Shown here: one piece after another, positions 6,945 to 23,240 of the stretch
Position numbering within the stretch: the first letter of the stretch is position 1
Layout: every line of letters starts with the position of its first letter
Assembly: GCA_011523395.1 (NCBI GenBank)
Contig: WTGW01000205.1
Span: forward strand, 1 to 53,853
Origin: Acidimicrobiia bacterium
Lineage (GTDB): Bacteria > Actinomycetota > Acidimicrobiia > Spongiisociales > Spongiisociaceae
Direction of reading: 5' to 3'
DNA length: 53,853 nt
Program-made: the position numbers and the translations under genes
The notes under the pieces: model-generated
What the model was told of the DNA's origin: nothing
The model's input: only the letters and a program-made list of their open reading frames with translations
Databases searched by the model: none

Positions 6945-7919
6945 TCAGCAGGTGGCCGTTTCACACTCAGCACCCACCTCCGACGTCTCCGGGGGCTGAT
7001 CCGCGCAGGGTCTCAAGCCGAAGCCGAACACCCGGCGGTACGGTTCCAGGCTGTAGTACGTAGCGGGCGGACCGTCCGGTGGTCGACCGTTCTCGGTGCG
7101 CAGGCGGCACACCGTCTCCATGCCGGCCGGATCGATGAACGCCGACGGTGACCAACCGGTGCGGGGATCCATGATCGACCGGCGGACCGCGTCGGCCAGG
7201 GTGGGAGTCGTCCCGTATGTCTCGCAGATGTACCGGTTGGCATCCTGGAGGTTCGCTGGGTGGTTGAGCCAGGTGATGGCGGCGCACAGCGCCTTCAGGT
7301 AGGAGTCCGCGGTGTCGGGGTGGGCTGCCAGCCAGGTCCGGAGGGACGCTCCGCAGGAGCCCTGCAGCCCCGGCAGAACGTGGTCACGGTCGCCCAAAAG
7401 GCTGAAACCGGCCTCCAGAGCCATGGCCGACCACGGTAGGGCGAGCATGGTGGCCGCTGTCCGGCCTGCCATCAGTGCCTCGTAACGCAGCTGAGTGCTG
7501 CCGAGCGGTACGAGAGAGACGTCCTCGGCGGCCAATCCTCCCGCCCGCACGATCTTCATCAGGACCGAGACGAACCCCGAGTCGGGCGAGTCCACCGCTA
7601 TCCCGCGCCCGGCCAGGTCCGCTACTCCCGCCAGCTCGGGCGAACCGATCAGCTGCAAGGGTCCGCTGGTGCCACCTATCCACGACACGATGTCCGCTCC
7701 GGTCCGGTCGGTCCACTCGATGAAGTTGTCCGGGGCGGCATGAACCACGTCGTAGCGACCGGCCAGCAAACCCTCCACCAACTCTCTGGAGCCCCGGGTC
7801 AGATGGAGCTCGGGCGCCAGCCCGGCTTCCGCGAGCAGGCCCAGGTGGTCGGCGATGCGTACCGGCAGCGACGACGCCCCGCTGAACAGGCAGACCCGGA
7901 GAGGCACACGCCCGGCCAT
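6945..7919 (-). CDS. NMT1/SsuA-type substrate-binding-fold protein without signal peptide
   Basis: A 324-residue periplasmic-binding-protein-like type II fold (start MAGRVPLRVCLFSGASSLPVRIADHLGLLAE; later 'LVEGLLAGRYDVVHAAPDNFI'). Relatives bind sulfonates, thiamine-type pyrimidines or aromatics for ABC uptake, and some family members are cytosolic enzymes (dihydroxyphthalate decarboxylase-like). No signal sequence or lipobox is visible, so it is likely cytoplasmic, or the true N-terminus is missed. The ATG at 7919 is chosen because the domain begins there; the frame stays open upstream only by crossing the amidase gene. It lies 31 nt after the amidase as the last gene of a nitrilase-amidase unit. 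Confidence 0.75.
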   Translation of the reverse strand: MAGRVPLRVCLFSGASSLPVRIADHLGLLAEAGLAPELHLTRGSRELVEGLLAGRYDVVHAAPDNFIEWTDRTGADIVSWIGGTSGPLQLIGSPELAGVADLAGRGIAVDSPDSGFVSVLMKIVRAGGLAAEDVSLVPLGSTQLRYEALMAGRTAATMLALPWSAMALEAGFSLLGDRDHVLPGLQGSCGASLRTWLAAHPDTADSYLKALCAAITWLNHPANLQDANRYICETYGTTPTLADAVRRSIMDPRTGWSPSAFIDPAGMETVCRLRTENGRPPDGPPATYYSLEPYRRVFGFGLRPCADQPPETSEVGAECETATC

Positions 7920-7950
7920 CACGCTCGGCTTCCGTGTGCCGGACACGCCA

Positions 7951-9411
7951 TCAGATAACCGGGCTCTCACCGACTCCGGGTAGCGGAGGTGGCCGGTAAC
8001 CCCCGGCGGCCGCTTCGTAGGCTGCCGCGACACGGAGCAGCAGGGGCTCGTGCAGCCGGCGCGCCGACAGCTGCAGGCCCACCGGTAGGCCGTCCACGTA
8101 GCGGCCGGACGGGATGGAGACCGCCGGCGCACCGACCATGTTCCAGGGCAGGGTGAGCCGCGTGGTGAGCCTGCTCTGCGCCCCCGGCTGGTCCAGTTCG
8201 ACACACCTTCCCCCACGGATCCCGACCTGCCGGGCGTCGATGGGGAAGGACACGGTGGAGTTGCACGGAGTGAGCACCACGTCCACCGCCTCGAATACTC
8301 GGGCAACCCCGGCGCGGATCTCGTTGCGTACCTGCAAGCCCCGGCGGTGATCGGCGGCGGAGACGAACTCCCCGGCCAGGATCCGGTAGCGGATCTCGGG
8401 TGTGGCGAAGCCGTCCGGACGGGCGAGAGCGTGCGGAAGGAGAAGGGACTGCGACTCGTGCTGGGCGGCCGCCAGCGCCAGGGGAATCTCGTAGAAGGCC
8501 GACAGGTCCACCTCCTCGACCGCCGCTCCCAGGTCCTCGAGGACCCGGGCCGCGTCACGTACGGTCTCCTCCACCTCCGCTAGGGCGTCGTCGAAGAAGT
8601 AGGAACCGGGCAAGCCCACCCTCAGACGACTCGTTCCCCTTGCCAAGCCGTCGCGGTAGGAACCCTCGAAGCCGGAATGGATGGACGTCGGGTCCTTGGG
8701 ATCGTGTCCGGCCATGACGTCGAGCAGGGTTGCGGCATCTCCGACCGTCCTCGTGATCGGGCCGATGGTGTGATGCCAGGAGCTGGTGGGAGGCAACTCC
8801 CCGAACCGGCTAGCCAGTCCGTGGGTGGGCATCAGTCCGACCACACCGCAATACGATGCCGGCGTCCGGATCGAGCCCCACCCGTCGGTGCCGACCGCGG
8901 CCCAGGCCATCCCGGCGCTCACCGCGGCGGCGGAGCCTCCGCTCGAGCCGCCCGGGATGCGGGCCGGGTCCCAGGGGTTGCGTACGGTGCCGAAGTGCAT
9001 GTCCTTGCAGGTACCCCCCATGCCCCACTCGTGCATGTTGTTCTTCCCCACGACGATGGCCCCGGCTCGCCGGAGGCGGGTGACTACCTCCGCGTCGAAG
9101 TCGGTCTTGTGATCCGCCCAGAGAACCGATCCGTTCGTGGTGGGGTGGCCCGCCACCGCAACGTTGTCCTTCACCGCCACCGGGATGCCGTGCAGCGGCC
9201 CGCGATGGTTACCGCCCGCGATCTCGTCCGCGGCGACCCTGGCGCCGGCCAGCGCTTCCTCTTCGAACACGGTGACGTAGGCCCGCAGGACGGGGTCCAG
9301 GGTCCGGATGCGGTCAAGCGTTCCGGAGACCAGATCGACGGGAGAGACCTCCCCGGCCGAGATACGACTTGCGACCTCGCTGATGGAGGCGAGCGCGATG
9401 CTGTAGCTCAA
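7951..9411 (-). CDS. Amidase signature family hydrolase
   Basis: A 486-residue amidase-signature enzyme hydrolysing carboxamides to acid and ammonia with a Ser-cisSer-Lys triad. From the TTG start: Lys81 (AVKDN), cis-Ser157 in GGSSGGS and nucleophile Ser180 in GWGSIRTPAS. The usual Gly before GSIR is Trp178 here. The TTG overlaps the stop of the upstream nitrilase-like gene (TTGA), and the next open start would lie deep inside that gene, so TTG 9411 is preferred. Length is typical. The context suggests it acts on an amide within the same pathway. Confidence 0.88.
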   Translation of the reverse strand: MSYSIALASISEVASRISAGEVSPVDLVSGTLDRIRTLDPVLRAYVTVFEEEALAGARVAADEIAGGNHRGPLHGIPVAVKDNVAVAGHPTTNGSVLWADHKTDFDAEVVTRLRRAGAIVVGKNNMHEWGMGGTCKDMHFGTVRNPWDPARIPGGSSGGSAAAVSAGMAWAAVGTDGWGSIRTPASYCGVVGLMPTHGLASRFGELPPTSSWHHTIGPITRTVGDAATLLDVMAGHDPKDPTSIHSGFEGSYRDGLARGTSRLRVGLPGSYFFDDALAEVEETVRDAARVLEDLGAAVEEVDLSAFYEIPLALAAAQHESQSLLLPHALARPDGFATPEIRYRILAGEFVSAADHRRGLQVRNEIRAGVARVFEAVDVVLTPCNSTVSFPIDARQVGIRGGRCVELDQPGAQSRLTTRLTLPWNMVGAPAVSIPSGRYVDGLPVGLQLSARRLHEPLLLRVAAAYEAAAGGYRPPPLPGVGESPVI

Positions 9412-10622
9412 CGCTCGCCCGCGTAGAGGGCGGTCCGCGGATCGGTGGAGTCCGGGACGCGCTCGGCCAGCTTTCCGGACCGGCGCAGTATCTGCACCAC
9501 GTAGGGAACCAGCTCCTCGGAGTCGTCGGGATCGAGCGCGTCGCCGAACCTCTCCCGGATCAGGAGCCGGGCGCGGGCCGCCAGGTCTTCGTCCGTGGGG
9601 GAGTCTTGCTCGGGGTCCCCTTCGACGCGACCGACAGGTTCCACCGGAAGGGTGCCTTCCTGCCCACCCCAGGAAAGCCGCAGGAGGTCGGGCCGGTCGT
9701 ACTGGCGGTTGACCAGTTGCGCCCAGGTTCCGGCGCCCGGGTCGATGTCGGCGTAGAGGATTCCCTCGCCCTGCTGGGGACCGGCCAGGATCCTGCCACC
9801 CGGCGCGTAGATCATCGAGCCGGGCTCCTCGGTCATCGTCATGAGGTTGGCCCGATGCGCGGCGTCCGGCGCCACCCGCTCCACGGCCTCCGCATCCGAG
9901 GCGGCGGCCGCCGAGAGCACGTGGGCCGTGTTCTGGTAGGCCACGGCCCGCCCGGTTATGGACACCACATTCTGCATCACGCCGGGAGCGTGGAAATGCG
10001 GGGGCCAGAGAGCCACGTGGATCCGGGCGCTCAGAGTGCGCATGGCGTAGGTGAGCAATGGGTTGGAGTTCTCCCCTCCTGCCAGCACGCTCACCGGCCC
10101 CCACGGCGAGTCGAACACGCGGATCGACTCCCCTCCGCCCGGGTGGAAGAAGACCCGCTCACCCACTGCCGGAACCAGCTTCCGGCGCACGCCGAGCATC
10201 GCACCATCCGGGGACAGCACCATCTGGCTATCGAATACCACGCTCACCCCGGGGTCGGGACGCTCGACGAGACCGATCACGACCATCGCTCCGGCGCGGC
10301 GGGCGGCCTCGCACAGCAGATCGCTCTCGGGGCCCGGAACCGTCAGGGCATTCTCCACCATGGCTGTGGCGAGTTCCCTCGAACGGCCGGCGGTGGGGGG
10401 CAGGGCGTGGAACCAGATCGGGTGTCCCGGAAGGAAGCTCTCACCGAATGCGACCAGGCGAGCACCGGCGGCTCCGGCCTCATCGATCAGGCCGCACGCC
10501 TTGCGCACGGACGCGGCCCGATCCAGAAACACCGGGGCCGCCTGCACCACGGCCACCCGGACGGGTCCTTCAGTACCGGCAGGCACGGGCTGATCGTATA
10601 CGATGACCGGACCGATGAACAC
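9408..10622 (-). CDS. Nitrilase-superfamily protein lacking the catalytic cysteine
   Basis: A 404-residue carbon-nitrogen hydrolase fold. The catalytic Glu (GESFLPGHP) and Lys (RRKLVP) regions are present, but the nucleophile motif reads LAGGENSNPL where active relatives have C-W/G-E-N; the Cys is Gly. A ~90-residue C-terminal extension follows the core. It may be a non-hydrolytic binding or regulatory protein or use altered chemistry. The annotated ATG gives a 12-residue lead; GTG at 10586 is in frame, fits the family N-terminus (RVAVVQAAPVF) better and would put the GTATAC palindrome outside the gene. First gene of a unit with the amidase. Confidence 0.8.
   Translation of the reverse strand: MFIGPVIVYDQPVPAGTEGPVRVAVVQAAPVFLDRAASVRKACGLIDEAGAAGARLVAFGESFLPGHPIWFHALPPTAGRSRELATAMVENALTVPGPESDLLCEAARRAGAMVVIGLVERPDPGVSVVFDSQMVLSPDGAMLGVRRKLVPAVGERVFFHPGGGESIRVFDSPWGPVSVLAGGENSNPLLTYAMRTLSARIHVALWPPHFHAPGVMQNVVSITGRAVAYQNTAHVLSAAAASDAEAVERVAPDAAHRANLMTMTEEPGSMIYAPGGRILAGPQQGEGILYADIDPGAGTWAQLVNRQYDRPDLLRLSWGGQEGTLPVEPVGRVEGDPEQDSPTDEDLAARARLLIRERFGDALDPDDSEELVPYVVQILRRSGKLAERVPDSTDPRTALYAGER
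10593..10604. promoter_or_regulatory. GTATAC palindrome between the nitrilase-like and LLM genes
   Basis: ATCGTATACGAT is a perfect 12-bp palindrome in the narrow divergent region. It shares the GTATAC core with sites near 11711, 21282, 23309, 23323 and 36281. FCD-type GntR repressors commonly bind such cores. Operator function is inferred. Confidence 0.5.
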
Positions 10623-11818: not shown

Positions 11819-13960
11819 ATGAGACACACGCGGCTATTGGCACTGCTGTTGGGGTTTGCCTTGCTTGTGGCGGCTTGCGGCGCGGATGAGGAACCCGCCG
11901 CCACGACCCAAGCCCCAACCACAACGCAGGCGACCCAGGCCACCGAGGCCCCGGCCGACGACACGCCCACCGAGACGGCTCCGGCCGACGATGCGATGAT
12001 GGATGAGGCCGAGACGATCGCCGACATCCGGTCGCGGATCGAGGGCCAGTCGGTGGTGGTGGGTAGCTCGGGCTTCCCGAATGCTTCGTTGACGGGTGCG
12101 TTCCGGACGATGGACTTCCTGCGGGATGATTTCGGCCTCGATGTGGAGTTCCGCCTGCTGGATTCCGATCCGCTGGTGGCGGCGACCATTGCCGGTGAGG
12201 TTGATGTCGGCCAGCTCTCCCTTGCTGGCATGGCCAATGCCGTTTCGGCCGGTTCGGACTTCCTGGCGTTCGGCGGCGATGACCAGAAGAACTCGTTCAT
12301 CATCGCGGCGAAGGCGCCGGTCAGTTCGATGGAGGAGTTGCGGGGCCAGCCGGTGGCGGCGACTCAGAGCCTGAACCAGATCACGGGCCAGACCCTCCAG
12401 AAGTGTCTGGCGGACGTGGGGATGACCGTGGACGACGTGCAGCTGGTGCGGTTGGCGCATACGGGTGAGGCGACCCAGGCGATCTCGTCGGGTCAGGTTG
12501 TCGGGGGGATCTCGGCTACCTGGCGTCTGACCCAACTCACCCTGAATGAGGGTGTGGGCGCGTACAACATGCTTTGTGCCGGTTGGGAAGCCGCCCCCCA
12601 GATTTCCTCGGTGTGGTATGCCGAGCGGGCCTGGGTGGAGGCCAATCCTGACATGGCGCTGGCGTTCAACATCGCGTCGTTGAAGTCGGCGCGTTGGGCG
12701 CAGGAGGACAAGCAGCGGTGGATCGAGTACGCCATGTCGGTGAACGATCGCCTTACCCCGGAGGCTGCGTCGCTCGACTACGACAGCCTCTTGGGCGAGT
12801 TGGACATGTGGCCGGTCAACGGTTCCCTCGACTACGACCTCTTGCAGACCACGCTGGACACCTCTTTCGAGTTCGAGGCGGTCGACCGTGAGTACACGGT
12901 GGAGGAGCTGGTCACCTTCGAGTTCCAGGACAAGGCACTTGAGATCCTCGGGACTGCCGAGCGCAATCCTGATATCTCCATGGCAGGCGATGCAATGATG
13001 GATGCGGATGCGGTGATCGCCGACATCCGGTCTCGTATCGAGGGCCAGTCGGTGGTGGTGGGTAGCTCGGGCTTCCCGAATGCTTCGTTGACGGGTGCGT
13101 TCCGGACGATGGACTTCCTGCGGGATGATTTCGGCCTCGATGTGGAGTTCCGCCTGCTGGATTCCGATCCGCTGGTGGCGGCGACCATTGCCGGTGAGGT
13201 TGATGTCGGCCAGCTCTCCCTTGCTGGCATGGCCAATGCCGTTTCGGCCGGTTCGGACTTCCTGGCGTTCGGCGGCGATGACCAGAAGAACTCGTTCATC
13301 ATCGCGGCGAAGGCGCCGGTCAGTTCGATGGAGGAGTTGCGGGGCCAGCCGGTGGCGGCGACTCAGAGCCTGAACCAGATCACCGGCCAGACTTTGCAGA
13401 AGTGTCTGGCGGATGTTGGTATGACCGTGGACGACGTGCAGCTGGTGCGGCTGGCGCACACCGGTGAGGCGACCCAGGCCATCACGTCGGGTCAGGTTGT
13501 CGGCGGTATCTCGGCTACCTGGCGTCTGACCCAGTTGACCATCAACGAGGGCGAGGGCGCCTACAACATGCTCTGTGCGGGTTGGGAGTCCAATCCTCAG
13601 ATCTCCTCGGTGTGGTACGCCGAGCGGGCCTGGGTGGAGGCCAATCCTGACATGGCGCTGGCGTTCAACATCGCGTCGTTGAAGTCGGCGCGTTGGGCGC
13701 AGGAGGACAAGCAGCAGTGGATCGAGTACGCCATGTCGGTAAACGAGCGCCTCACCGCAGAGGCTGCCGCCATCGACTACGACGGCCTCATCCATGAGCT
13801 GGACATGTGGCCGGTCAACGGTTCCCTCGACTACGACCTGATGCAGACCACCCTGGACACGTCGCTCGAGTTCGAGGCGGTCGACCGGGCCTATACGGTC
13901 GAGGAGCTGGTCACCTTCGAGTTCCAGGACCAGGCACTGGATATCCTCGGGCGGCGATAG
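11819..13960 (+). CDS. Double-domain ABC substrate-binding lipoprotein (tandem NMT1/SsuA-type)
   Basis: A 713-residue protein: signal peptide with lipobox LVAAC (Cys20), a Thr/Ala/Pro-rich linker (about 21-60), then two near-identical ~320-residue substrate-binding domains offset by exactly 333 residues (999 bp). The second has no signal sequence and is joined through a short linker (GTAERNPDISMAGDAMM). Both keep the 'VGSSGFPNASLTGAF' start and 'GEVDVGQLSLAGMANAV' segments. Ordinary family members have one domain. It should be membrane-anchored on the cell surface and feed the permeases encoded at 14162 and 15007. The ATG is preceded by GGGAGGAA. The ligand is unknown. Confidence 0.88.
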   Translation: MRHTRLLALLLGFALLVAACGADEEPAATTQAPTTTQATQATEAPADDTPTETAPADDAMMDEAETIADIRSRIEGQSVVVGSSGFPNASLTGAFRTMDFLRDDFGLDVEFRLLDSDPLVAATIAGEVDVGQLSLAGMANAVSAGSDFLAFGGDDQKNSFIIAAKAPVSSMEELRGQPVAATQSLNQITGQTLQKCLADVGMTVDDVQLVRLAHTGEATQAISSGQVVGGISATWRLTQLTLNEGVGAYNMLCAGWEAAPQISSVWYAERAWVEANPDMALAFNIASLKSARWAQEDKQRWIEYAMSVNDRLTPEAASLDYDSLLGELDMWPVNGSLDYDLLQTTLDTSFEFEAVDREYTVEELVTFEFQDKALEILGTAERNPDISMAGDAMMDADAVIADIRSRIEGQSVVVGSSGFPNASLTGAFRTMDFLRDDFGLDVEFRLLDSDPLVAATIAGEVDVGQLSLAGMANAVSAGSDFLAFGGDDQKNSFIIAAKAPVSSMEELRGQPVAATQSLNQITGQTLQKCLADVGMTVDDVQLVRLAHTGEATQAITSGQVVGGISATWRLTQLTINEGEGAYNMLCAGWESNPQISSVWYAERAWVEANPDMALAFNIASLKSARWAQEDKQQWIEYAMSVNERLTAEAAAIDYDGLIHELDMWPVNGSLDYDLMQTTLDTSLEFEAVDRAYTVEELVTFEFQDQALDILGRR
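11989..12953 (+). repeat. Intragenic direct repeat, copy 1
   Basis: First copy of a ~965-bp duplication encoding the first binding domain; copy 2 starts 999 bp later. From about 12040 to 12381 the two copies look identical, then scattered substitutions appear, then identity returns around 12602-12715. This mosaic fits recent duplication or gene conversion. Confidence 0.9.
12988..13952 (+). repeat. Intragenic direct repeat, copy 2
   Basis: Second copy of the domain-encoding repeat. Base differences from copy 1 (for example around 13390-13600 and 13740-13800) argue against a simple assembly duplication. Confidence 0.9.
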
Positions 13961-14161: not shown

Positions 14162-15007
14162 ATGGCCGCAGTCGACACGCTGACCCACCGGGAGCAGGGT
14201 CCCGCGATCCTGGCTGCCGGGTGGAGCCGCCCCCTGCTGCGGTTCCTGGCGGTGTTCCAGTCGAATTGGTTGATCCGGATCCTGACTCTGGCCGTCATCC
14301 TCACCGGCTGGGAGGTCTTCGGCAGGCGCACCAGCACTGTCACCTTCGCCTCGGTGACCAGGACCTGGGATGCGCTATGGGAGATGACCGTCAGCGGCGA
14401 CCTGTGGAAGGCGTGGCGGTCCGACCTGGCCATCATGTTCACCGCCCTGGCCATCTCGGCGGTGGCCGGAATCGTCCTGGGCTTTGTCATGGGGCGGTAC
14501 CGCTCGATCGACAACACCGTCGAGCCGGTGTTCGTGGGTGTGTTCATGACCCCCAAGATCGCCCTGCTGCCGATCATCGCCCTCTGGCTGGGCTTCCAGT
14601 TCAACGCCAAGGTGCTGATCGTGATCCTCTTCAGCTTCTTCGAGGTCTTCTTCACCGTTCGTGACGGGATCAAGGTGACGAACGCCGAGTATGTAGACGT
14701 GGCCAGGTCATACTCGATCCCGGAGGGCATGATGCTCACCAAGATCATCGCCCCGGCCACCGCGCCCTACATCATCACGGGGCTCCGTCTCGGCCTCCTG
14801 CACGGGATGGTGGGCGTGGTGCTGGCCGGCTTCTTCCTCGAGGCCAACGGGATAGGGGGGCTGATAGCCAACCAGACCAACGAGTACCGGATGCACACGA
14901 CCTTCGCCGGCATGCTCACCGTCATGGCGGTGGGAGTAGCGATCAACCTCGGCCTGCGGCTGCTCGAGCGTTGGGTGACCCCGTGGAGCACCGTGGAGGC
15001 CACGTGA
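14162..15007 (+). CDS. ABC transporter permease (SsuC/TauC-like)
   Basis: A 281-residue inner-membrane permease with about six membrane segments and a recognisable EAA loop for ATPase contact (EYVDVARSYSIPEGMMLTKIIAPATAPYI, with the conserved Gly and Pro). It belongs with the double-domain lipoprotein upstream and the ATPase gene at 22422. Its stop overlaps the next permease's start by one base (TGATG). Likely imports a small organic anion or N-heterocycle as part of a heterodimeric permease. Confidence 0.88.
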   Translation: MAAVDTLTHREQGPAILAAGWSRPLLRFLAVFQSNWLIRILTLAVILTGWEVFGRRTSTVTFASVTRTWDALWEMTVSGDLWKAWRSDLAIMFTALAISAVAGIVLGFVMGRYRSIDNTVEPVFVGVFMTPKIALLPIIALWLGFQFNAKVLIVILFSFFEVFFTVRDGIKVTNAEYVDVARSYSIPEGMMLTKIIAPATAPYIITGLRLGLLHGMVGVVLAGFFLEANGIGGLIANQTNEYRMHTTFAGMLTVMAVGVAINLGLRLLERWVTPWSTVEAT

Positions 15008-16023
15008 TGGCCGAGACTCCGACGGACGGCGGAGACGGCGCCGTCCAGTCTGGCAGTGAGACCCGCAACCCGTTCCGGATCAGCCGGGTGAGGCTCCTCC
15101 AGTTGACCGGAATCGTGGCTTTTCTCGGGCTGTGGGAGGTGTTCGGCGCCCGCAAGCCCGAGTGGTACTCGCAGCCGAGCCTGACGCTCGCCGAGTTGTG
15201 GAGGCTCCTCGGCGCCGAGCAGGTGCTTCCCTACATCGACGGGAGCTTCCCGGTCCTGCTCATGAAGTCCATGGGGGCTCTGCTGATCGGCATGGTGCTC
15301 TCATTCATCGTGGGGGTGACCCTCGGTTTCCTGATCGGCCGGTACCGGGTGTTCCGGGTGGCGCTCGACCCCTACCTGGCGGCCGTCTACTCGGTACCGC
15401 GGGTGGCCTTCGTCCCGATCATGGTCATCTGGTTCGGTATCTCAGACAACTTCCTGGCGGCCGGGGTCGAGATTCCCTTCTCCAGGTTCGTGATTGCCAG
15501 CGTGGTGGTGGCCTGCTCGGTCTTGATCGCGTTTTCCACCGCGGCGGGGGTGCATGAGTTGATGAAGGAGTACAACGAGATCTCCTATGCCTTCAACCTG
15601 AGGTCGGGCAAGGGCGTGGTCGAGGAATGGGTAGGGGCCATCCTCCTCGTCGTCACCTTCCTGGGTACGGCCGCGGGATGGCTGAGCCTCATACAGGGTC
15701 TGGTACTGCTGTTCGGCACGGTGGGGCTCCTCGTCGCACGCGACCGGCACATGTTCCTGAAGATCCTCCTGCCCGGCGCCGTCCCGTTCCTGGCCACCGG
15801 TCTCCGCATCGCCGTGCAACGCGGGCTGATCGCGGTGATCGTGGCCGAGTTCCTGATCGGGGTGCCCGGACTGGGCTTCGTGATCCGGGACGCCCGCGCC
15901 GCCTACCACACCGACCGGCTGTTCGCCATGGCGCTGCTGCTGATGGTGATCGGGGGGATCATGATCACCATCACCAAGGCGGTCGAGTCCCGGTTGTCCT
16001 CCTGGCGACCCAGAGCATTCTGA
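15007..16023 (+). CDS. ABC transporter permease with an insertion in the EAA loop
   Basis: A 338-residue permease paralogous to its neighbour. The EAA loop begins at 'EISYAFNLRSG' but a 45-residue, largely hydrophobic segment (DNA 15610-15744, with two runs such as ILLVVTFLGTAAG and IQGLVLLFGTVGLLVA) precedes the rest of the loop (MFLKILLPGAVPF). This is absent from the partner permease and would place extra membrane segments in a normally cytoplasmic loop. The start at 15007 is chosen because it couples to the upstream stop; a longer start at 14971 lies inside the previous gene. Confidence 0.85.
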   Translation: MAETPTDGGDGAVQSGSETRNPFRISRVRLLQLTGIVAFLGLWEVFGARKPEWYSQPSLTLAELWRLLGAEQVLPYIDGSFPVLLMKSMGALLIGMVLSFIVGVTLGFLIGRYRVFRVALDPYLAAVYSVPRVAFVPIMVIWFGISDNFLAAGVEIPFSRFVIASVVVACSVLIAFSTAAGVHELMKEYNEISYAFNLRSGKGVVEEWVGAILLVVTFLGTAAGWLSLIQGLVLLFGTVGLLVARDRHMFLKILLPGAVPFLATGLRIAVQRGLIAVIVAEFLIGVPGLGFVIRDARAAYHTDRLFAMALLLMVIGGIMITITKAVESRLSSWRPRAF

Positions 16024-19199: not shown

Positions 19200-20207
19200 T
19201 CAGAGGAGCTGTCTTGCCAGGTAGTCGATCACGACGCCGGGATAGAGCGGGTGGAAGGGCCGGCCGAAGTTCTTCATGGTGATCTTCTCCTGCACCCGGG
19301 TGGCGTAGTCCTCGGCGTCCAACTGGAAGGAGTGGTTGGCACCCGGAATCACCCTCAGCTCGACATCCCGGTTCCCGGCGGCCCATAGGGCTCGGACCGT
19401 CTCGAAGGCGTCTTCTATGGGTACGTTCAGGTCCTCGGCGCCGTGCAGCACGAGGGCGGGGGCTGCCAGGTGGCGGAACTGGTCCTCGGGAGGGAGGTCC
19501 AGGTCGTACCGCAGGCTCGATAGGTCGCGGGTTGCGGTCACACCGTCGACCTCCGCTGCCGCCACCGGCTCTCGCTTCTCGATCGCGCTCACGACGGCCC
19601 TCATCATCATCGCATCCTGGTAGGCCTTGGGGGAGTGCTCCTTCACCCACGCCACCTCGGACTCGCCGAGGCGCATGTAGTCACGGACCAGGCTGTAGTT
19701 GTATTCGAGCAACGCCGCGATCGACCGGTAGAGGGCGCCCTGCAACACCGCCGCGTCGGGCTGCCCCACTTCGAGCGCCACCCGGCAGAGCACGTAGGCG
19801 CCTGCGCTGTGGCCCAGCATGGCCGCCCTGCCGTCGCACTCGGGTAGGGACCGGACCCACCGCCACACGGCCCCGGCGTCGGCGACCTCCTCGGCGCGCC
19901 GGACTCCCAGCTCGCCGGTGCTCTCGCCGGCGCCCCTCCGGTCGAAGCGGAAGGAGGCGATGCCCGCCCGCGCCAGACCGCGGGCGAGGATGGCGTACAT
20001 GTGGCGCTTGGGGACGCCGGGCCAGAGCCTCGGATCCACGTCGGCATCCCTGAGATCCGAAAACGTCCCTCCCAGCAGGAGGGTCACCGGCCACGGGCCT
20101 TCGCCGGTCGGCAGGGTCAGGGTCCCGGCCAGGGTGGCGCCTTCGACCTCTACCAAGCGGTCCTCGTCTCGGAAGGATCTGGCCCGGCCAACGCTTCGGG
20201 TGCGCAC
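19200..20207 (-). CDS. Alpha/beta hydrolase (dienelactone hydrolase/peptidase S9-like)
   Basis: A 335-residue alpha/beta hydrolase with nucleophile elbow GHSAG (Ser134), an acid in 'LHGAEDLNVP' and a catalytic His in 'PGANHSF'. The cap resembles acyl-peptide or ester hydrolases. No signal peptide, so it is cytoplasmic. It is divergent from the intact nitrilase gene with ~96 nt between starts. Likely an esterase, lactonase or C-C hydrolase in the same catabolic set; the substrate is not inferable. Confidence 0.82.
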   Translation of the reverse strand: MRTRSVGRARSFRDEDRLVEVEGATLAGTLTLPTGEGPWPVTLLLGGTFSDLRDADVDPRLWPGVPKRHMYAILARGLARAGIASFRFDRRGAGESTGELGVRRAEEVADAGAVWRWVRSLPECDGRAAMLGHSAGAYVLCRVALEVGQPDAAVLQGALYRSIAALLEYNYSLVRDYMRLGESEVAWVKEHSPKAYQDAMMMRAVVSAIEKREPVAAAEVDGVTATRDLSSLRYDLDLPPEDQFRHLAAPALVLHGAEDLNVPIEDAFETVRALWAAGNRDVELRVIPGANHSFQLDAEDYATRVQEKITMKNFGRPFHPLYPGVVIDYLARQLL

Positions 20208-20303
20208 GGAAACCTCCTGGGAGTTCTCTCCGATCGAGCCTGCGGAGCCCCGCCGGTATTAGCCTCTCGGAAATGTCGGTCGCCGATCATAACGATTGCT
20301 GCC

Positions 20304-21266
20304 ATGGCTGAACGCCTAGCGGGATCGAAGTTCGTGGCCGCGGTCGTACAGGCGGCGCCGGTCGGTTTCCATCCGGATGCCACGCTGTCCAAGACGGTCG
20401 ATCTGGTTACCCGGGCGCGGTCGGCGGGCGCGGACCTGGCGGTGTTCCCCGAGGCCTTCTTCTCCGCCTACCCGCGGGGCCTCGACTTCGGGGCAGTGGT
20501 CGGGTCGCGGAGCGAGGCGGGCCGGGATATGTTCCTCCGCTACTGGGAGTCGGCGGTCGACGTGCCCGGTCCCGTCACCCACCGGCTCGCCGAACTGTCA
20601 TCCGACCTGGCGCTGGACCTCGTGATCGGGGTGATCGAGCGCGGCGGGAGCACGCTGTACTGCTCGGTGCTGTTCTTCGCGCCGGAGGAGGGCATGTACG
20701 CCAAGCACCGCAAGGTGATGCCGACCGGTTCCGAACGGCTGATCTGGGGGTTCGGGGACGGGTCGACGCTCCAGGTTCACCGGACCCGGCACGGCAACCT
20801 GGGCGCCGCCATCTGCTGGGAGAACTACATGCCGCTGCTCCGCTACTCCCTCTACCGGCAGAACATCCAGGTGTGGTGTGCTCCGACTGCCGACGCCAGG
20901 GACAGCTGGACCGCCTCCATGCGGCATGTGGCGGTGGAGGGCCGCTGCTACGTGCTCTCGGCCAACCAGTACACGACCCGTGCGGACTATCCCGCCGACT
21001 ACCGGTCCGTTTTCGGCGACGCCCCCGACGGTGTGATCACCCCGGGTGGGAGTTGCATCGTCGACCCGTTCGGTGAGGTCCTCGCCGGGCCCTGTTATGG
21101 GAGCGAGGCGATCCTGACCGCCGAGATCGACCTGGCCGACACGATCAGGGGCAAGTTCGACCTGGATGTGGCCGGTCACTACAGCCGGTCCGACCTCTTC
21201 GCCTTCGAGGTCACGCCGCCGCGCCGTCAGGACGTCACGGGCGGAGCCGGGGACACCTCCGAATAG
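20304..21266 (+). CDS. Nitrilase (carbon-nitrogen hydrolase, catalytically intact)
   Basis: A 320-residue nitrilase-branch enzyme converting nitriles to acids and ammonia (some members also act as cyanide or amide hydrolases). The triad is complete: Glu50 (FPEAFF), Lys137 (HRKVMP) and Cys171 (ICWENYMPLLRY). The ATG at 20304 precedes the first beta strand (FVAAVVQAAPV); a longer open frame from 20001 runs back through the divergent hydrolase gene and is rejected. It contrasts with the Cys-less homologue at 9408. Confidence 0.9.
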   Translation: MAERLAGSKFVAAVVQAAPVGFHPDATLSKTVDLVTRARSAGADLAVFPEAFFSAYPRGLDFGAVVGSRSEAGRDMFLRYWESAVDVPGPVTHRLAELSSDLALDLVIGVIERGGSTLYCSVLFFAPEEGMYAKHRKVMPTGSERLIWGFGDGSTLQVHRTRHGNLGAAICWENYMPLLRYSLYRQNIQVWCAPTADARDSWTASMRHVAVEGRCYVLSANQYTTRADYPADYRSVFGDAPDGVITPGGSCIVDPFGEVLAGPCYGSEAILTAEIDLADTIRGKFDLDVAGHYSRSDLFAFEVTPPRRQDVTGGAGDTSE

Positions 21267-22421: not shown

Positions 22422-23240
22422 TCAAACGGTGGCGGTCTTGTGTGGCAGTAGTTTGTTCCAGATGTCGTGCCGCATGTCGGCGAACAAGGGATCCCGCTTC
22501 AGGTCCCCCTCGGTCCTCGGGTACGGGAAGGGGACGTCGATGACCTCGCTCACGGTGCCCGGGTGCGCCGACATCACCGCTATCCGCCCGGACAGGAAGA
22601 TCGCCTCGTCCACGCTATGGGTGACGAACACCACCGTCTTGCGGGTCTTCTCCCAGATCCCGAGCAGTTCTATCTGCATCAACTCGCGGGTCTGCGCGTC
22701 GAGAGCGCCGAACGGCTCGTCCATGAGCAGTATCTCGGGATCTACCGCCAGGGCGCGAGCGATTCCCACCCGCTGCTGCATACCGCCCGACAGTTCATGG
22801 GGATGGTGGTTGGCGAAGCCCTCCAGTCCCACCATCCTTATGTACTTCCAGGCAATCTCCTCGCGCTCCGCCCTTGACTTCCCGGCAGCCTCCAAGGGGA
22901 GGGTCACGTTCCCCGTCACGGTTCGCCACGGGAAGAGCCCGAACTGCTGGAACACGAAGGCGCGATCCCGGCCCGGCCCGGTTACGGGCTTGCCCGAGAC
23001 TCTGACCTCACCGGAATCGTAAGGGACCAAGCCGTCCAAGACCTTCAGCAGGGTGGTCTTGCCGCATCCGCTCGGACCGATGAGGCTGACGAACTCGCCC
23101 TCGGCCACGGTCAGGCTGGCGTCGCGCAGGGCCTGAACCGTCCCGTGCGTCCGTCCCCGCCGGCTCAGGCGCTTCGGAGGCGTACCGGTCTTTCGATAGA
23201 ACTTGTCGACGTGTGCTATCTCGATCTTCGGTCTAGCCAC
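22422..23240 (-). CDS. ABC transporter ATP-binding protein (SsuB/TauB/NrtD-like)
   Basis: A 272-residue ATPase with Walker [10 protein letters not shown] (55-63), Q-loop [11 protein letters not shown], signature LSGGMQQ (150-156) and Walker B LLMDE (171-175). It has a basic insertion at about 18-33 ([16 protein letters not shown]) before the first strand pair. It is the only ATPase of this class in the window and almost certainly energises the permeases at 14162-16023, although it lies 6.4 kb away on the other strand. GTG start. The double GTATAC palindrome lies 66-91 bp upstream. Confidence 0.9.

Follow-up and report, generated by a model that had tools for sequence, protein, structure and literature searches.

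A lipoprotein with two tandem substrate-binding domains on one lipid anchor, shaped by duplication and probable gene conversion, in Acidimicrobiia

Binding proteins of the SsuA/TauA/NMT1 (THI5-like) class, which belong to sulfonate, taurine and pyrimidine importers, typically carry a single domain per polypeptide, but one lipoprotein gene in the Acidimicrobiia DNA analysed here (the window, a whole stretch of 53,853 nucleotides) encodes two. This locus poses the question of whether the doubling is real and, if so, how it arose and what two binding domains on one lipid anchor may do for their importer.

Architecture and family of the tandem lipoprotein

The gene is an uninterrupted ORF at 11819-13960 on the forward strand, as are all of its parts given below, and it encodes a protein of 713 amino acids. 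An earlier note on this DNA had described it as a lipoprotein with two tandem substrate-binding domains from a 999-bp internal duplication; this was borne out by the ORF itself, by two stretches matching the Pfam family NMT1 and by domain copies that form a direct repeat offset by 999 bp. Over 975 bp (gene positions 166-1140), these copies, A and B, share 91.7% identity. The N-terminus, MRHTRLLALLLGFALLVAAC|GADEE, carries a single signal peptide and a single lipobox (VAAC) at 11819-11878; the LVAAC motif occupies residues 16-20, ending in Cys20, and is kept in the orthologs of three other genomes described below (G001, G006 and G013). No second signal peptide or lipobox lies ahead of domain B in the 713-residue translation, and one export signal thus serves two domains, as had been claimed. 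Between the lipid-modified cysteine and domain A (12017-12952; about residues 67-378) lies a low-complexity spacer of Thr, Ala, Pro, Glu and Asp (11879-12016), the composition of which differs among species. A 21-residue linker, TAERNPDISMAGDAMMDADAV (12953-13015), separates domain A from domain B (13016-13957; about residues 400-713), so that the domains measure about 312-314 residues apiece, linkers extra. The linker start, TAERNPDISMA (window 12953-12987), has no counterpart in the single-domain ortholog of G013, and the second part of the linker resembles the N-terminal lead of that ortholog. At the DNA level, the linker start weakly matches an internal EANPDMALA stretch (73% over 26 bases), which is probably due to chance.

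Tracts that are identical between the copies measure 347 bp, 97 bp and 40 bp. The longest one lies at 12038-12384 in copy A and at 13037-13383 in copy B, while the 97-bp tract lies at 12620-12716 and 13619-13715. The earlier description of about 340 identical bp, with other parts differing, was therefore accurate.

As for the family of the domains, the NMT1 profile (PF09084) scored 76.5 bits against a gathering threshold of 20.5, with its best stretch at residues 106-297. TIGR01728 (NCBIfam SsuA_fam) scored 87 bits, which is below its cut-off of 163.5 and does not make the protein a member of SsuA; TIGR01729 (TauA) was not among the families reported for the 713-aa protein, and had no match in its genome (G000) at an E-value of 1e-25. 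Among solved structures, SsuA (3uif; E 1.8e-5) is the only one clearly related by sequence. The above-cut-off profile match, the lipobox export signal and the linkage to permease and ATPase genes are those of an NMT1/SsuA-type binding protein, and the NMT1 match, the TauC/SsuC-like permeases and the TauB/NtrD-like ATPase are shared with the sulfonate, taurine and pyrimidine importers. Judged by these matches, the 713-aa protein is a divergent member of the SsuA/TauA/NMT1 binding proteins. AlphaFold2 gave a mean pLDDT of 42.1 for domain A (6-row alignment) and of 38.6 for the full mature protein (4 rows), which is too poor for pocket placement.

The tandem recurs in related species

Among 15 genomes of the family that were searched, two further species of the same genus (G001 and G006) carry the same 713-residue gene, with 97% identity and the same linker, and no close relative was found in the remaining seven genomes of the genus. 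To judge from their isolate names, these strains are presumably sponge symbionts. At the same locus, G013, a member of a sister genus, encodes an ortholog with only one domain, which shares 88% identity with A and 93% with B. The gene order is common to all four genomes (G000, G001, G006 and G013): amidase, nitrilase-like protein, LLM oxidoreductase, binding protein, two permeases, LLM oxidoreductase and OsmC. Rhizohabitans arisaemae has a single-domain protein of 39% identity, beside which no counterparts of the neighbouring genes were found. Scans of 396 genomes of the phylum and 296 genomes of the class returned no further close relatives outside the genus, and there was no match in the plasmid collection.

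The earlier note had also considered that a single-domain gene might have been turned into a tandem by misassembly. These genomes exist as drafts in many contigs, assemblers can merge small differences between copies, so that exact identity is perhaps overstated, and in the second tandem family described below the contigs of G675 and G681 end inside the gene, which is a sign of repeat trouble. However, the copies in G000 differ by 8%, the linker consists of unique sequence, three species share both this linker and the copy-specific tails, and the tandem of the second family is intact in G713, a six-contig genome. Because two further species carry the same gene and linker, an artefact, the probability of which we put close to nil, is effectively excluded by these comparisons, and the tandem is taken to be real.

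One duplication followed by gene conversion

For trees and distances, each domain was treated as two parts, a core spanning gene nt 253-879 and a tail spanning gene nt 900-1137 (window 12718-12955 in copy A and 13717-13954 in copy B). The results showed that the core copies are identical (0% difference) within G001 and within G006, and that cores diverge between species by 3-9%; the first half taken alone gave 7-9% and the second 3-10%. The core tree joins the two G001 copies to each other, and likewise the two G006 copies. In G000, the first half of the core is homogenised (0.3% A/B difference) but the second half is not (10.3%). The stretch homogenised within species is about 630 bp per copy. 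At third codon positions of G000, the longest A/B-identical run spans 115 codons, whereas 20,000 shuffles reach at most 76. The tails are not homogenised: between species, they differ by about 5% for A-A and 5-7% for B-B, compared with 13-16% for A-B within species, and the tree of the last 80 codons separates the A lineage from the B lineage with 100/100 support. The tail of the single-domain protein of G013 is 16-18% away from B and 22-23% away from A, and thus the A tail has changed more.

The grouping of the core by species and of the tail by copy strongly supports one duplication older than the three species, followed by repeated intragenic gene conversion acting on the core only, with the 347-bp identity as a putative conversion tract. 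The earlier proposal of duplication plus gene conversion is thereby strengthened, and the overall pattern is independent of any exact identity that short-read assemblers may have created by merging small repeat differences. Similarly, in the concerted evolution of prokaryotic paralogs, within-species copies are more alike than orthologs (PMC6053082); those paralogs are separate genes, whereas here the copies are domains of one gene.

Selection and equivalence of the two domains

Between species, dN/dS of the core is 0.01-0.06. In the tail it is 0.17-0.30 between A and B and 0.03-0.10 within each copy; these ratios indicate purifying selection on both domains. Of 326 positions, 26 are not shared by A and B; 6 of these lie in the lead (55-66), none in 67-222 and the rest in 223-380, and most belong to the lead/linker and the C-terminal region. 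The G013 and Rhizohabitans proteins have the same residue in 125 columns; A deviates from it in 7 of them and B in 4. Because both domains are under purifying selection and the A/B differences spare residues 67-222, two working sites for one ligand would fit better than two ligands, with pocket equality judged by sequence position only. Of the two functional readings offered by the earlier note, raised local capture is thus favoured by these residues and by the low core dN/dS, and the binding of two ligands fits less well.

The divergence of the tails nevertheless leaves room for some division of labour, in which the domains would differ in ligand, affinity or docking preference, like SBD1 and SBD2 of GlnPQ, and the non-homogenised C-terminal part would carry the difference. 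Such a division would agree with the separate A and B tail clades, with the higher dN/dS between than within copies, and with replacements in the second half of the domain, such as AA versus SN at 258-259 and V versus E at 246. However, in G001 and G006 the two copies do not differ at residues 246 and 258-259, and the identity of residues 67-222, together with the repeated homogenisation of the copies in each lineage, opposes specialisation; we consider this reading unlikely. Alternatively, domain A may mainly be a spacer that raises domain B off the membrane through the envelope, its own binding being secondary. Such a role would suit a free lipoprotein whose single anchor is followed by a long spacer rich in Thr and Ala, and it would agree with the greater distance of the A tail from the single-domain ortholog, but purifying selection on A is as strong as on B, and A retains 118 of the 125 family-conserved residues, so that a mere role in reach appears very unlikely.

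The importer and its neighbourhood

Two permease genes lie directly downstream of the binding-protein gene on the forward strand and were recognised by profile matches: permease 1 (14162-15007; BPD_transp_1, TauC/SaoP-like) and permease 2 (14971-16023; BPD_transp_1 in two stretches). The probable partner ATPase (22422-23240), which is TauB/NtrD-like and the best NtrCD-type ATPase match in the genome, is found in the same cluster but on the reverse strand. This protein is TauB-like at 252 bits, below the cut-off of 357; its gene sits opposite an ORF without Pfam match, and a counterpart of 93% identity lies close to the locus in G013. From the neighbouring genes, the ligand may be an organic compound of nitrogen or sulfur: they encode an amidase, two nitrilase-family proteins, two LLM oxidoreductases, a molybdenum hydroxylase and an OsmC-like protein.

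Several other features of this neighbourhood were observed. Permease 2 contains, at residues ~211-262, a hydrophobic insert that is probably a helical hairpin (EYNEISYAFNLRSGKG - insert - MFLKILLPGAVPF). It falls in the loop that in BPD_transp_1 proteins carries the ATPase-contacting EAA motif, and is conserved in G001, G006 and G013; permease 1 has no such insert. In the nitrilase-family protein at 9408-10622 (reverse strand), the expected catalytic CWEN reads GGEN in all four genomes, whereas its paralogue at 20001-21266 keeps CWEN; the former is possibly a conserved non-catalytic nitrilase homologue. A second NMT1-like protein, at 6945-7926 (reverse strand) beside the amidase, is without evident signal peptide or lipobox; its identity to the G013 counterpart is ~46%, measured over a region in which overlapping sequence may be included, compared with 81-84% for its neighbours.

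A second, independent tandem in TauA-like lipoproteins

When 148 genomes of the class were searched with the SsuA model, a single frame with two matches was found, in G318. It encodes a lipoprotein (L058) of 679 aa with a single lipobox. Two stretches of this protein match TIGR01729 (267.8 bits), giving two TauA-like domains that have an 846-bp identical tract in common. Beside it lie an aminotransferase-like ORF, an ATPase fused to a membrane region, a permease and a phosphotransacetylase-like ORF, a neighbourhood that is consistent with taurine use; here, the aminotransferase and phosphotransacetylase calls and the taurine-pathway reading come from inspection of the translations. Among 51 genomes of this other Acidimicrobiia family, the full tandem occurs in five species (G318, G713, G672, G679 and G669), and others carry single-domain or fragmentary versions, including single-domain orthologs in G676 and G711; the match in G683 is split over two frames. 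Within species, the copies differ by 0-3% in four of the five, and by 10% in G679, the pair of which is not freshly homogenised because this value equals the difference among genus-mates. The two genera concerned are ~15-20% apart.

Like the 713-aa protein, this family (L058 and L065-L069) has one lipobox, two near-identical domains, in this case 319-321 residues apart and homogenised in four of five species, and single-domain orthologs in relatives. In contrast, its domain sequence is unrelated, and it is located between aminotransferase and TauB/TauC-like genes. The search for other double-domain binding lipoproteins that the earlier note had proposed has thus yielded both the orthologs in G001 and G006 and a separate family. 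Since the tandem recurs in an unrelated TauA-like lipoprotein, the free-standing tandem architecture, which is rare in the genomes compared, is judged to have arisen at least twice.

In the phylum, taurine-type matches at an E-value of 1e-25 occurred in 12 of 346 genomes, and two in one frame only in G318. Of the NMT1 matches listed as strongest over 296 genomes of the class, no two lay in one frame; the 713-aa protein scores below those listed. Long frames in G524, G307, G426, G023 and G477 were also considered as further tandems and rejected, as each holds one binding domain running into unrelated sequence.

Discussion

Taken as a whole, the locus is best explained, with a probability of roughly 60%, by an in-gene duplication that gave two domains for the same ligand, docking alternately on one importer. 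A free, lipid-anchored NMT1/SsuA-type binding protein of an ABC importer would have been duplicated head to tail within its own gene, resulting in the order lipid anchor, spacer, domain A, 21-residue linker and domain B. Both domains would share one small organic ligand, which in view of the neighbours might be a sulfonate, an amide or an N-heterocycle, and would take turns docking on the permease pair (14162-16023), probably powered by the ATPase at 22422-23240. The benefit may be that each lipid anchor and each transporter is served by more binding sites, an advantage that has been suggested for tandem domains of the GlnPQ type, while gene conversion would hold the two sites equivalent.

Homogenisation may, however, come from tandem-repeat recombination alone, without selection for dosage. 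The duplication would then be nearly neutral, a tandem without advantage whose homogenisation is a by-product of inter-repeat recombination. Conversion between close direct repeats is expected even without selection, and single-domain orthologs persist in relatives (G013, and G676 and G711 for the taurine type). On the other hand, such similar repeats should easily collapse by deletion, yet they are kept in three species of one type and five of the other, and two types of binding protein within the class acquired the tandem independently. We therefore regard near neutrality as quite unlikely, and prefer two same-ligand domains that serve one importer.

In GlnPQ of Lactococcus lactis, two different binding domains are fused to the permease, so that four sites compete for docking close to the translocator (PMC8025302). 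The 713-aa protein shares with GlnPQ the two tandem binding domains in one polypeptide for one importer, and the larger number of sites near the translocator. It differs in that it is a separate lipoprotein, its ORF ending at 13960 and the permeases being separate ORFs. Moreover, the GlnPQ domains differ in ligand specificity and affinity, whereas here the domains are 92% identical and homogenised, and the positions of their differences suggest equal sites. A term-based search of the open-access literature, weak evidence of absence as it is, found no published description of free-standing tandem binding lipoproteins. Overall, this protein is an unusual but understandable variant of the known tandem-binding-domain arrangement.

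These findings have two implications. First, conversion inside one bacterial gene can halt at a boundary, leaving a core that evolves by species beside a tail that evolves by copy. Second, free-standing tandem binding lipoproteins may, as a tentative view that we hold at less than even odds, be a recurrent and selected adaptation of Acidimicrobiia, in which conversion keeps the sites equal and a single importer receives two loaded domains from one anchor. Studies of what additional binding domains do for an importer have mostly used permease-fused domains. Here, two unrelated lipoproteins have undergone the same change, and their single-domain orthologs are natural controls, which makes the effect of doubling directly testable.
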